64,000 nt of DNA from Opitutaceae bacterium. Its GTDB lineage: Bacteria; Verrucomicrobiota; Verrucomicrobiia; Opitutales; Opitutaceae. Shown piece by piece: positions 56,670-61,784 of the stretch. The translations under genes were made by a program, and so were the position numbers. Position 1 is the first letter of the stretch. Each line of letters starts with the position of its first letter. Location of the stretch: contig JAQTYQ010000003.1 of assembly GCA_028688225.1 (NCBI GenBank), positions 124,001 to 188,000 of the forward strand, given 5' to 3'. A model generated the notes under the pieces. That model had not been told where the DNA came from, made no database searches, and was given only the letters and a program-made list of their open reading frames with translations.

Positions 56670-57068
56670 TCATAGCCTGTCGAGATGCTCGAGAAACTGC
56701 CGGGGCGAGAGGATCGGGATGTCGGCGTGGTTTTTCAGGGTTAGCAGGTCGTCGTCGCCGATGATGATGGCATCTGCTTGGGCGGCCAAGGCGGTGGCCA
56801 GCACGGCGTCGTCATCCGGATCGCGGCACACGGGCGCGGGCAGGGGCTGCGCCTTGACGACCGTGGCGCGGGCCCGGTATTCCGCCAGCCACGGCACGTC
56901 GCCCACCGGCACTCGAAATTTACCGCGCAGAGTGGCGGTCAGCTCCTTCAACAAAGCGTCGCTGGTGCACAACTCGTGCCCGCGCACCCGCCGGCGCACG
57001 AGGTCGCGGCACAGGCCGTCAGCCACGAGCGCCGCGACCAGGACGTTGGTGTCGAGGACAATTTTCAA
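56670..57068 (-). CDS. PIN-domain toxin (COG1569-like)
   Basis: MKIVLDTNVLVAALVADG...LCRDLVRR...CRDPDDDAVLATALAAQADAIIIGDDDLLTL. Confidence 0.9.
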   Translation of the reverse strand: MKIVLDTNVLVAALVADGLCRDLVRRRVRGHELCTSDALLKELTATLRGKFRVPVGDVPWLAEYRARATVVKAQPLPAPVCRDPDDDAVLATALAAQADAIIIGDDDLLTLKNHADIPILSPRQFLEHLDRL

Positions 57069-57283
57069 GACACCCGCTTGAAGACGTCCTCGTCGGTGTA
57101 GAGACCCTGCGCGCGGGCCCGCGGCACGAGTTTGCGGCGGCTGGCTTCAAACGCCTCCTCCCACAACCGGTCCTGCAGGGCGCGGCGCACGAACTCGCTC
57201 TCGGTAAGTTGCAGCGTCCGTGCCGACCGGCCGATTTCGCGCCGCATCTTCCTCGGCAGGCTGACGGTCAGGGTGGTTCTCAT
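57065..57283 (-). CDS. Ribbon-helix-helix antitoxin
   Basis: MRTTLTVSLPRKMRREIGRSARTLQLTESEFVRRALQDRLWEEAFEA; overlaps the PIN gene. Confidence 0.85.
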   Translation of the reverse strand: MRTTLTVSLPRKMRREIGRSARTLQLTESEFVRRALQDRLWEEAFEASRRKLVPRARAQGLYTDEDVFKRVS

Positions 57284-57383
57284 GATGTAAGATCAAATAA
57301 GACAGCATTAACCACCGGTCAAGCGGCAGGTGGGCGAAGCGATAGGGAGGCGCTGGCAGGAAGATCACGATGCTTGTCATTGT

Positions 57384-57407
57384 ATGTGAATCATCCATGT
57401 TTCACAT
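57384..57407. promoter_or_regulatory. Inverted repeat ATGTGAA-N10-TTCACAT, candidate antitoxin operator
   Basis: 7-bp perfect arms ending 4 bp before the antitoxin ATG at 57412. Confidence 0.65.
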
Positions 57408-57411
57408 CGTC

Positions 57412-57666
57412 ATGGCCAAGGCGAGCATCAGGCAGTTGCGGACGGAGTTCCCCAAGGTGCGCGCGCTGATCGAGCGTGAGGGGGAGGTCGTGGTCACCGA
57501 GCGCGGCCAGGCCGCCTACGTCATCCGGCCCTACCAGCCGCCGAAAAAAAAGCAGCCGAAGCCTGAACCGTTCGACTACTACGCACGGCTGATCAAGCGC
57601 ATGCCCAAACCCATCTCGGCCGAAGCCTCCCGGGCGATCGACGAGCTTAATCGTGGCGAGCGCTGA
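57412..57666 (+). CDS. Phd/YefM-like antitoxin
   Basis: MAKASIRQLRTEFPKVRALIEREGEVVVTERGQAAYVIRPY. Confidence 0.82.
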   Translation: MAKASIRQLRTEFPKVRALIEREGEVVVTERGQAAYVIRPYQPPKKKQPKPEPFDYYARLIKRMPKPISAEASRAIDELNRGER

Positions 57667-58102
57667 AGACAGCTACATCGACCCGAGTGCGTTGCGGGCG
57701 CTTTACCTTGCCGACCCCCGGTCTCTGGCCATGACTCGGTGGCGGACGCGCAGTGGCGGCGCCATGCCGATCACCCGATTCGGGCATGCCGAGCTGATCA
57801 ATGCCATCGCTCTCGGACAGTTTCGGGGTGATTACGGGGAGACTGAGTGCAGCGGTGCGATGGACGATGTCCGCAACGACTTGGAGGAGGGGAGACTGCG
57901 CTTGGTGGACCTGCCGTGGCGCGCCGCACTGGACGGCGCGGTGAGCTTGAGCCGCACCTATGCACCGAAACTGGGCACTCGGGCGCTCGATGTGCTTCAT
58001 GTTGCCTCCGCACTGGAATTGCAGGCCCGGCAGTTCATAACCTACGACGACCGGCAGGCGCGGCTGGCGGCGGCCTGCGGGCTCAAGGTGGTCCGGCCGT
58101 GA
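57653..58102 (+). CDS. PIN-domain toxin (VapC-like)
   Basis: YIDPSALRALYLADPRS...ITRFGHAELINAI...LGTRALDVLHVASALELQARQFITYDDRQARLAAACGL; overlaps the antitoxin. Confidence 0.85.
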   Translation: MASAEDSYIDPSALRALYLADPRSLAMTRWRTRSGGAMPITRFGHAELINAIALGQFRGDYGETECSGAMDDVRNDLEEGRLRLVDLPWRAALDGAVSLSRTYAPKLGTRALDVLHVASALELQARQFITYDDRQARLAAACGLKVVRP

Positions 58103-58678: not shown

Positions 58679-59866
58679 ATGGATTCCACGTCCACCGTTG
58701 CATCCCTGGTCACCGACGCCGGCTCCCGCCGGCGCGCGAAGGAGCGGCTGTATGTCGTGTGCCAGGCGGCGGGCTGGCTGGGTCTGCTGATGCTGCAGTT
58801 GCTGTTTGTCCGGCTGTTCGCCACCGAGCGGGATCCGAGCGACTCGATCCCGTCGATCGTGCAGACCATCGCGGAAGGCTGGCTGATCACCCATCTGGTC
58901 CGACGCTGGCTCGCCCGCTGGGGCTGGAAGGATCTGGGCTGGCGGCGGCTGGCCCCGCGGATCCTGGGCATGGCGGTGGTGCTGTCGGCCATCTGGGCGG
59001 CGGTCAGCTTCGGCATCTGTTACGGCCTCCTGCGCAATCCCTTGCCGGCCAAATACCACCCGCTGGCGATCCTCGCGCTGAACCTGATGAACGGCACGAT
59101 CCTGATGGCCGGCTGGTTGTGCATCTATTTTTTCTATCACCTGTTCGACCGCTACAACCGCCTGCAGATCGAGCAACTGCGGCTGACCGCCGCGGTCAAG
59201 GAGGCCGAGCTGCGGGCGCTCAAGTCGCAGATCAACCCCCACTTCATCTTCAACTCGCTCAACTCGCTGCGCGGGCTCATTGACGAGGACCCCGACCGGG
59301 CCCGCCAGGCTGTCACGCAGCTGGCCAACCTTCTGCGCTATTCATTGCAGTCCGGCCAGCTCGAGACCGTGCCGTTCGAGGAGGAACTGCACACCGTCAA
59401 TGACTACCTCGCGCTCGAACAGGTGCGCCACGAGGAGCGCCTGCGGGTGCGGCTCGACGTCGCTCCCGGGGCGCTCGCGCTGCCGATCCCACCGATGCTG
59501 CTGCAGACGCTGGTGGAGAACGCGGTCAAGTACGGCATCGCGCCGCGCCGTGAAGGCGGTGAGATCGCGATCATCGCCCGGTGCGAGCACGACCAGCTCC
59601 GTTTGCAGGTCACCAACCCCGGCACGCTGGCCGCCGGCGGCGGCTCGACCGGCGTCGGCGTGCGCAACGCCGCCGACCGGCTCGGACTGCTCTTCGGCGC
59701 CCAGGCCACGCTGGACCTGCGCGAAGACCCGCCCGGCCACGTCGTCGCCGAGGTCATTCTGCCGCTGGAAACGACCCCAATCCGGGAATCCTCCCCGGCG
59801 CGAAACCCGCCTGCGGCCGGGCCTGGAGTCCGGCCTCCCGACCGGAAGGCGGCCCTCTCCGCATGA
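58679..59866 (+). CDS. LytS/YehU-family sensor histidine kinase
   Basis: His_kinase motif ELRALKSQINPHFIFNSLNSLRGLIDEDP; MLLQTLVENAVKYGI; multi-TM N-terminus. Confidence 0.92.
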   Translation: MDSTSTVASLVTDAGSRRRAKERLYVVCQAAGWLGLLMLQLLFVRLFATERDPSDSIPSIVQTIAEGWLITHLVRRWLARWGWKDLGWRRLAPRILGMAVVLSAIWAAVSFGICYGLLRNPLPAKYHPLAILALNLMNGTILMAGWLCIYFFYHLFDRYNRLQIEQLRLTAAVKEAELRALKSQINPHFIFNSLNSLRGLIDEDPDRARQAVTQLANLLRYSLQSGQLETVPFEEELHTVNDYLALEQVRHEERLRVRLDVAPGALALPIPPMLLQTLVENAVKYGIAPRREGGEIAIIARCEHDQLRLQVTNPGTLAAGGGSTGVGVRNAADRLGLLFGAQATLDLREDPPGHVVAEVILPLETTPIRESSPARNPPAAGPGVRPPDRKAALSA

Positions 59867-60591
59867 AGGCCCTGCTGATCGACGATGAACGCCTGGCGCG
59901 CAACGAACTGCGCCGGCTGCTCGCGCCGCACCCGGAGATTGTGATTGTCGGCGAGGCCGCCAACGCTGACGCAGCCCGCGCGCGCATCGCCGAACTCCGG
60001 CCGGACCTGATCTTTCTCGACATCCAGATGCCGGGCGACGACGGCTTCGCGCTGCTCGAGTCGCTCGAGCCGCCGCTGCCGCGGGTGATCTTCACCACCG
60101 CCTACGACGAGTTCGCGGTGAAGGCGTTCGCGTTCAACGCCCTCGACTACCTCATGAAGCCGGTTGATCCCGCGCGGCTGGCCGCGGCGCTGGAAAAGCT
60201 GCCGGGGCGCGCCGGAGACACGCCGGGCGCCGCGTTGTCCGAGCGCCCGCTGCGTCTCGCCCCCGAGGACAAGGTGTTTGTGCGCGCAGGCGAGCGCTGC
60301 TGGTTCGTCGAGGTGCGGTCGATCCGCCTCATGGAGAGCGAGGGCAACTACACCCGCGTGCATTTTGACGACGCCCAGCCGCAGCTCTTCCGCTCGCTCA
60401 ACGCCATGGAGGAACGCCTGGACCCGAAGGCCTTCTTCCGCGCCAACCGCCGCCAGATCATCAACCTTTCCTGGATCGACCGGATCGAGCCGTGGTTCAG
60501 CGGCGGCCTGCTTGTCCACCTCAAGGGCGGCCTGAAGGTCGAACTCTCCCGCCGCCAGGCCCAGGCCTTCCGCGAGAAGATGAGTCTTTGA
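59863..60591 (+). CDS. LytTR-family response regulator
   Basis: MKALLIDDERLARNELRRLL...DLIFLDIQMPGDDGFALLESL...C-terminal LytTR DKVFVRAGERCWFVEVRSIRLMESEGNYTRVHF. Confidence 0.94.
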   Translation: MKALLIDDERLARNELRRLLAPHPEIVIVGEAANADAARARIAELRPDLIFLDIQMPGDDGFALLESLEPPLPRVIFTTAYDEFAVKAFAFNALDYLMKPVDPARLAAALEKLPGRAGDTPGAALSERPLRLAPEDKVFVRAGERCWFVEVRSIRLMESEGNYTRVHFDDAQPQLFRSLNAMEERLDPKAFFRANRRQIINLSWIDRIEPWFSGGLLVHLKGGLKVELSRRQAQAFREKMSL

Positions 60592-60598
60592 ACCCGCG

Positions 60599-60629
60599 AC
60601 CACGAATGGACACGAACCAACACGAATCC
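60599..60629 (+). repeat. Left inverted repeat of the GxxExxY cassette: ACCACGAATGGACACGAACCAACACGAATCC
   Basis: Pairs with 60998-61028 at 26/31 positions. Confidence 0.85.
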
Positions 60630-60995
60630 GGGTTAATCCATGGGGAACTGGTATACGCGATCGTCGGGTGTGCCATTGAGGTCTTGAATGAATTGGGTCA
60701 CGGTTTGAACGAAAAACCGTATGAGAACGCTCTGACGGTGGAGTTTGGCTTCAAGGGAATCGCGTACAATCAGCAGGCTCGCTTTGATGTCACCTACAAG
60801 GGCCGATCCGTCGGGGAGTATATTCCCGACTTGATCGTCGCGAAGGCGGTGGTTGTGGATGCCAAGGTCATCGAACGAATCACTGACATTGAGCGGGGCC
60901 AGATGATCAATTACCTGCGCATCACCAAACTGCGCGTCGGAGTGATCTTGAACTTCAAGAGACCCAAGCTCGAGTGGGAGCGCATCGTGCTCTAG
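60606..60995 (+). CDS. GxxExxY-family protein (PD-(D/E)XK nuclease-superfamily-like)
   Basis: VYAIVGCAIEVLNELGHGLNEKPYENALTVEF...ARFDVTYKGRSVGEYIPDLIVAKAVVVDAKVIERITDIERGQMINYLRITKLRVGVILNFKRPKLEWERIVL. Confidence 0.9.
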   Translation: MDTNQHESGLIHGELVYAIVGCAIEVLNELGHGLNEKPYENALTVEFGFKGIAYNQQARFDVTYKGRSVGEYIPDLIVAKAVVVDAKVIERITDIERGQMINYLRITKLRVGVILNFKRPKLEWERIVL

Positions 60996-60997
60996 GC

Positions 60998-61028
60998 GGA
61001 TTTGCGTCGATTCGTGTTCATTCGTGGT
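60998..61028 (-). repeat. Right inverted repeat of the GxxExxY cassette (reverse complement ACCACGAATGAACACGAATCGACGCAAATCC)
   Basis: Pairs with 60599-60629 at 26/31 positions. Confidence 0.85.
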
Positions 61029-61040
61029 TTTCTCCCTTTC

Positions 61041-61784
61041 ATGATCGAAGCCCGCAACCTCACGAAGATCTTCCGCGACAAGAAGCGCGGCGAAGTCCGC
61101 GCGGTCGACGGCGTTTCCTTCACCTGCCGCCCGGGCCAGATCTACGGCCTGCTCGGCGCCAACGGCGCGGGCAAGACCACCACGCTGCGCCTCCTCGCCA
61201 CCCTGCTGCGTCCTACCAGCGGCGGGGCCACCGTGGCCGGCCACGATGTGGCCGCGGCTCCCGGCCGGGTGCGGGCCAGCGTGGGCTTCCTCGCCACGAG
61301 CACCGCGCTCTACGGCCGGCTCACCGCGCGCGAAACCATCGCGTACTTCGGCCGGCTCAACGGCCTGGCGGACGCGCAGATCGCCGTCCGCATCGGCCAG
61401 CTTGCCGACGAGCTTGGGCTGCACGAGTTCCTGGACCGCCGCGTGGAGAAATTCTCGACCGGCATGAAACAGAAGACCTCCATCGCCCGCACCCTGGTGC
61501 ACGATCCCGCCGTGCTCGTCCTGGACGAACCGACGCTCGGCCTCGATGTGATGGCGGCCCGGGCCATCGTGCGCTTCGTGCGGGAATGCCGCGCCCGGGG
61601 CAAGACCGTGATCTATTCCACCCATGTCATGAGCGAGGCGGAGAAGCTCTGTGATGTCATCGGCATCATCCACCATGGCCGCCTCGTGGCCGAGGGCACC
61701 CTCGATCAGCTCCGCCGGCGCTACACCCGGCCGGACCTGGAGGAGATCTTCGTGCAGGCCGTGGGAGGGGAGGAGGTCGCATGA
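61041..61784 (+). CDS. NatA-like ABC transporter ATP-binding protein
   Basis: YGLLGANGAGKTTTLRLLATLLRPTSGGATVAGHDV; FSTGMKQKTSIARTLVHDPAVLVLDEPTLGLDVMA. Confidence 0.93.
   Translation: MIEARNLTKIFRDKKRGEVRAVDGVSFTCRPGQIYGLLGANGAGKTTTLRLLATLLRPTSGGATVAGHDVAAAPGRVRASVGFLATSTALYGRLTARETIAYFGRLNGLADAQIAVRIGQLADELGLHEFLDRRVEKFSTGMKQKTSIARTLVHDPAVLVLDEPTLGLDVMAARAIVRFVRECRARGKTVIYSTHVMSEAEKLCDVIGIIHHGRLVAEGTLDQLRRRYTRPDLEEIFVQAVGGEEVA

Follow-up and report, generated by a model that had tools for sequence, protein, structure and literature searches.

In the window analyzed here (the whole stretch of DNA, 64,000 nt, from the 4.3-Mb genome G000), a small gene bracketed by inverted repeats lies between the gene for a LytTR response regulator (59863..60591, + strand; PF00072 and PF04397, with orthologues in relatives) and that for a NatA-like ABC ATPase (61041..61784, + strand; PF00005), in a neighborhood whose Pfam domains read His_kinase, Response_reg plus LytTR, ABC_tran, and ABC2_membrane. 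An inverted-repeat search placed the left arm at 60599..60630 (+ strand) and its inverted copy, the right arm, at 60997..61028 (- strand); the arms are 32 nt each, are 84% complementary, and have 366 nt between them. The left arm begins 8 nt after the LytTR stop codon (TGA, 60589-60591), 12 nt separate the end of the right arm from the NatA ATG at 61041, and the sole ORF between the arms runs from 60606 to 60995 (+ strand), with its ATG falling within the first word of the left arm. An earlier note on this DNA had described inverted arms, a lone ORF, these distances, and a start codon inside the left repeat, all of them correctly. The left arm is made of the words CACGAAT (60601-60607), CACGAAC (60611-60617), and CACGAAT (60621-60627), mirrored in the right arm at 61020-61026, 61010-61016, and 61000-61006, the last of which is degenerate; the linkers are all 3 nt long, and their letters differ between the two arms. 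When up to three mismatches were allowed, the two arms were the only matches to ACCACGAATGGACACGAA within the window (shuffles average 0.08), and an Rfam covariance-model search of the cassette returned no match at E <= 1. Elsewhere in the window, at 56670-57283 (- strand) and 57370-58102 (+ strand), are two adjacent pairs of small genes that look PIN toxin/antitoxin-like from a reading of their translations only.

The ORF encodes a 129-aa protein that matches TIGR04256 at 128.4 bits (cut-off, 35) and PF13366 (PDDEXK_3) at 120.6 bits (cut-off, 22); these whole-domain matches above the curated cut-offs make it a member of the GxxExxY family, as the earlier note had recognized. PF13366 was the only domain found in a Pfam scan of the ORF, the Y1 transposase domain PF01797 being absent. 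In the conserved columns of the family, E36, D75, and K87 are invariant and D/E85 is conserved; all are present here, with D at position 85. The structure model of the protein is confident (pLDDT, 92.9), and its nearest PDB folds are lambda exonuclease, Cas4 SSO0001, and MGME1 (Foldseek E values of 5e-4 to 4e-2); no sequence-related solved structure was found. The predicted fold and the E, D, and (D/E)xK letters place the protein in the PD-(D/E)XK superfamily as a predicted nuclease. It is under purifying selection, with dN/dS values of 0.07-0.20 between orthologous cassettes. GxxExxY matched none of the PADLOC defence models at E <= 0.1 and nothing in PHROG, and a plasmid or phage origin was rejected, matches being limited to 5 plasmid and 2 phage records. 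GxxExxY proteins are common, and to our knowledge no role has been assigned to them; the papers searched name the family in passing, and none of them connects GxxExxY with repeats or shows such word arrays for bacteria.

G000 has five GxxExxY matches, four complete genes and one fragment. All four complete genes show arms, but with differing words: CACGAAT at lytTR-natA, CACGGAT at dppD-dppF, CACAAAG/CACAGAG in C84, and AACGGAG/AACAGAGG in C77. TIGR04256 is present in 164 of the 291 phylum genomes sampled. Arms were called where the score exceeded the 99th percentile of shuffles, in tests on genes with usable flanks; by this threshold, 99 of 114 GxxExxY genes in the phylum have arms (about 13% fall below), compared with 11% when left and right flanks were taken from different loci and 5.9% for unrelated ORFs (n = 119) in the same stretches. 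An arm is made up of about three 7-nt words joined by 1-4-nt linkers; in the phylum, TTNAACC is followed by words such as CACAGAG, CACGAAG, CGCAAAG, CACGAAT, and ACAGGAT with a period of 8-10 nt, and gene-bearing elements are commonly 420-480 bp long. A scan of GTDB genomes added 80 loci beyond the phylum. Of the 77 that could be tested, 58 passed the same threshold (cross-locus control, 19%); by record title they represent about 15 other phyla, bacterial and archaeal, and include one methanogen MAG. The set is biased to one clade, that with CxCxxAG words, because the closer alignment was used for the scan, the broad one being too diverse. The association between repeat and GxxExxY that the earlier note proposed to look for elsewhere is present throughout the phylum and far beyond.

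The words themselves follow the protein. A tree of 194 proteins needs 6 changes of word class, and none of 200 shuffles gave fewer than 33; in the cross-phylum set, with its one-clade bias, 76 of 76 labelled genes have CxCxxAG words. More than one word class is present in 16 of the 22 genomes that have at least two labelled genes, so the word is not dictated by the host; word class tracks the GxxExxY protein clade.

To see what is held constant within an element, facing arms were compared in 61 elements. Linker lengths are equal in 94% of facing linkers and in 57% of non-facing ones, linker letters agree between arms at a frequency of 0.40 versus 0.33 at random, and word agreement is the same for facing and non-facing word pairs. 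Stem pairing as the sole constraint was rejected, as the linkers are non-complementary and word identity is no higher in pairing partners. The matched linker lengths with near-random linker letters indicate that the words keep their mirrored spacing even though no continuous stem is preserved. Reading of the words by a protein, whether on a hairpin, a cruciform, or a two-fold complex, would be expected to leave such a pattern. Between G002 and G004 orthologues, words diverged by 1.8% and linkers plus loops by 6.3% (P = 6e-5), a difference that we regard as suggestive, since the test is biased by how the sites were found and unbiased word positions gave P = 0.14. At the AMMECR1-speE junction of the same two genomes (L276 and L277), a hairpin has three CACGGAT words in its left arm and three CACTGAT words in its right arm, so that the words are uniform within each arm and different between arms.

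Most repeat copies carry no gene. The genome-wide hairpin counts for G000 rest on pattern searches, in which CACGAAT gave 30 matches (reversed control, 1), many of them gene-less inverted pairs of 70-130 bp; the same genome has 52 matches to ACCACRRAKN{1,4}CACRRAK and zero GACAGGAT arrays. When four gene-less hairpins were folded as single-stranded DNA, three folded far better than shuffles (z of -4.4 to -6.5) and one did not. Gene-bearing and gene-less forms occur together: ACCACRRAKN{1,4}CACRRAK has a mean of 20.2 matches per genome with GxxExxY and 1.0 without (P = 3e-32), the reversed pattern giving 0.19 and 0.11, and at least three CACRRAK-pattern matches are found in 126 of the 164 genomes with GxxExxY versus 9 of the 127 without (odds ratio, 43; P = 7e-36). 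This contrast was upheld in 14 of the 16 families that have both states and was also seen inside S23-positive genomes (P = 5e-18). Copies match their gene in word type as well, GACAGGAT (ACAGGAT) arrays having a mean of 30 in the eight genomes whose sampled GxxExxY gene is ACAGGAT-armed and of 4.4 (median, 0) in 66 other genomes (P = 3e-5). Nine genomes without detected GxxExxY nonetheless hold at least three repeats. Five genomes (G157, G217, G224, G243, and G259) are without GxxExxY at E <= 1e-10, yet have 11-24 word-array matches, for which gene loss, assembly gaps, or a divergent partner may account. The loops of gene-less hairpins within one genome share no sequence, and an origin of gene-less copies by internal deletion is not supported, the loops being unrelated between copies. 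One loop (L366, G004:C401) holds an arm of another word type (CACAGGAGGTAACAGAGG), and these genomes also contain other dispersed inverted repeats (L011 and L278; GTAGGGGCGCAGC...GCTGCGCCCCTAC and GTAGGGCGGGGTCGCC...).

Relatives show the same junctions occupied in different ways or not at all. The lytTR-natA junction carries a gene-bearing cassette in G000 and G001, gene-less hairpins of other word types in G002 and G004 (CACGAAA words), in G003 and G005 (GGGAAA words), and in G008, and no insert in G011, where the lytTR stop codon overlaps the natA ATG. This is the empty site that the earlier note had proposed to define by comparison with relatives, and it bears out the idea of a discrete insert in an existing operon. 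As repeat and gene are associated across the phylum and beyond, neither of the outcomes named there as speaking against the proposal (a repeat unassociated with GxxExxY genes elsewhere, or a junction conserved with no empty sites) was found. Similarly, dppD-dppF has a GxxExxY cassette in G000, G002, and G004, other gene-less hairpins in G003 and G008, and is empty to 3 bp in G005. One gene-less G000 site is occupied by a different hairpin in both G002 and G004. Two further gene-less G002 sites were compared; the first is absent from G005, and the second lies in a variable region, empty in G003 and with an acyl-carrier-like ORF in G004. The G004 region (L380; G004:C107:1809-2299) is about 600 bp with an acyl-carrier-protein-like ORF where G002 has the gene-less hairpin. 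In the lytTR-natA cassette of G001 (L039, reverse complement 2225-2928), downstream of the GxxExxY stop codon and ahead of the right arm, there is a nested gene-less CACGAAT hairpin. Left arms begin a median of 8 nt past a same-strand stop codon, and in 55 of 64 cases the GxxExxY gene and the gene upstream of it point the same way; together, these suggest that GxxExxY is expressed by read-through from the upstream gene. Either biased insertion or selection may underlie this position after a stop codon. A direct-repeat scan of 101 elements found no target-site duplication above chance at useful frequency, a feature that the earlier note had proposed to look for, and no fixed target.

The pairing of gene and arms, together with the gene-less copies, suggests that these elements are a family of dispersed and probably mobile DNA that has gone unrecognised. 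We lean toward the reading that GxxExxY and its word arrays form a dispersal or maintenance system, equivalent in function to RAYT-REP but based on an unrelated nuclease. On this view, the 430-bp unit would be one version, the one with the gene, of a widespread dispersed element. GxxExxY, a stand-alone PD-(D/E)XK nuclease, would recognise the words of the inverted arms that flank its own gene, probably once these are extruded or single-stranded as a hairpin, and would cut or process the arms, which would in this way both spread to gene junctions and be retained there, whether or not they carry the gene. The pairing data support recognition of the words well, and from there we infer that the protein may bind and cut the arms and mobilise them in trans. 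Mobility of the element is likewise suggested by the empty sites, the dispersal, and the one nested copy. The earlier note had proposed a non-autonomous mobile unit; its mobility is supported in this indirect way, but "non-autonomous" does not fit, as, if anything, it is the gene-less hairpins that would be non-autonomous, with the gene-bearing copy as their candidate autonomous partner. Several observations count against the dispersal model. The 101-element scan gave neither a target duplication nor a fixed target, and unrelated loops are unexpected for simple internal-deletion derivatives. The nine genomes with at least three repeats and no detected GxxExxY, the roughly 13% of phylum genes under the arm threshold, and the different word types at the same junctions from species to species (a matter of site choice or replacement) also weigh against it. 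To this we add that we know of no stand-alone PD-(D/E)XK protein that moves DNA alone.

S23 genes were examined because of the resemblance between the unit and 23S rRNA IVSs, which measure 428-444 nt, combine a stem of 28-bp inverted repeats with an S23 ORF, and are excised by RNase III (PMC4990558). S23/four-helix-bundle genes (TIGR02436) occur in 201 of the 291 phylum genomes, and 44 of 50 S23 loci (L386-L435; G000:C73:52847 and 57819) have inverted word arrays above threshold. The flanking words (AGTGGCT, TAAGCTT, GAGCTTG, AGGGATT, AGACCTG, and others) are quite unlike those of GxxExxY, whose word types lie near only 2 of the first 30 S23 loci. The main rival to dispersal, unlikely in our judgment though it could hold in addition, is an IVS-like element acting at the RNA level, promoterless and co-transcribed with the host operon, whose arms base-pair in the transcript and are cleaved by RNase III, which would make the insert harmless, with the ORF as a passenger. 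Known IVSs bear a striking likeness to the 430-bp unit (PMC4990558), and the word arrays around S23 genes, the left arms close behind a stop codon, and the co-direction with the upstream gene all suit this reading. The near-random linker letters, however, mean that the stem is not kept continuous, cleavage by RNase III would not require word identity to follow protein clade as it does, and the encoded protein is conserved with its predicted DNA-nuclease fold intact. Because S23 genes also lie within inverted word arrays, a general class of word-array elements is plausible. We suggest tentatively, leaning slightly against it ourselves, that GxxExxY cassettes, S23 cassettes, and 23S rRNA IVSs are one large unrecognised class of mobile DNA, present in most phyla and consisting of a small ORF, inverted word arrays specific to the encoded protein family, and gene-less swarms.

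Also improbable, and a little more so, is a domesticated host system, in which the hairpins are functional operon-junction sites (for mRNA boundaries, replication, or repair) serviced by GxxExxY as a host nuclease, their spread being old and the sites kept by selection. Loops that are unrelated whereas words are conserved, identical junctions re-occupied in relatives, and the smaller divergence seen in words when G002 is compared with G004 would follow, but that divergence test carries the bias given above, many relatives are without both gene and repeats, and junctions are empty in otherwise intact operons. We give very little credence to the arms being autoregulation operators of the nuclease gene, with gene-less pairs as stranded remnants: the gene is bracketed by arms and here even has its start codon in the left one, but operators need no similarly made inverted arms downstream of the stop codon, no tens of gene-less pairs per genome, and no matched linker lengths. 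Coincidence or an annotation effect, by which common repeats happen to lie near GxxExxY genes, can be dismissed for practical purposes despite the simple, purine-rich word patterns, as it is contradicted by the shuffle, cross-locus, and unrelated-ORF controls, by the reversed pattern's mere 0.1-0.2 matches per genome, and by specificity by word and by protein clade.

With its flanking word arrays and gene-less copies, the roleless GxxExxY family gains a testable partner, and the pairing of clade with word is a ready recognition code to test. If the dispersal model is true, REP-like dispersed repeats across much of bacterial diversity go back to a protein class that is not the tyrosine transposases, and the intergenic repeats common in environmental genomes have their origin explained. 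The S23 genes, with the same architecture and other words, suggest a general principle that may explain the puzzle of rRNA intervening sequences.

Among known systems, lambda exonuclease, Cas4, and MGME1 resemble GxxExxY in predicted fold and catalytic letters; unlike them, GxxExxY is a single 129-aa domain, with 11-17% identity and a genetic context that is not shared. MITEs and their parent IS elements likewise have gene-less inverted-repeat copies beside gene-bearing ones and empty sites in relatives, but the GxxExxY element is without a transposase, no target-site duplication was detected in the 101 elements scanned, and the loops are not a homologous interior. The 23S rRNA IVS shares a unit of about 430 nt, inverted ends of about 30 nt, one small ORF, and a transcribed region (PMC4990558). 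Its sites are rRNA helices and its product is a four-helix bundle, whereas the GxxExxY unit sits in protein operons (here between lytTR and natA, not in 23S rRNA), encodes a predicted nuclease rather than S23, and has word arrays and many gene-less copies. The hallmarks of RAYT-REP are a gene between inverted repeats, coevolution of repeat and protein, and an abundance tied to the gene (PMC2817692). GxxExxY resembles REP/REPIN-RAYT in that a small gene is always bracketed by inverted palindromic repeats, a genome has many gene-less repeats at extragenic sites, repeat abundance correlates with the cognate gene, and repeat and protein coevolve (PMC2817692, PMC3116915). RAYTs are Y1 tyrosine transposases (PF01797), and GxxExxY is a PD-(D/E)XK nuclease without a Y1 domain; a REP is a single palindrome of 20-40 bp, and GxxExxY arms are three 7-nt words with free linkers, found in about 15 phyla. 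The earlier note's "REP-like" therefore holds as a good analogy, the arms being clade-dependent word arrays and not one conserved 31-bp sequence. In gene, repeat, and pairing, the GxxExxY elements agree with RAYT-REP, and in the absence of a Y1 transposase they differ, so that the likeness would be one of working and not of membership.
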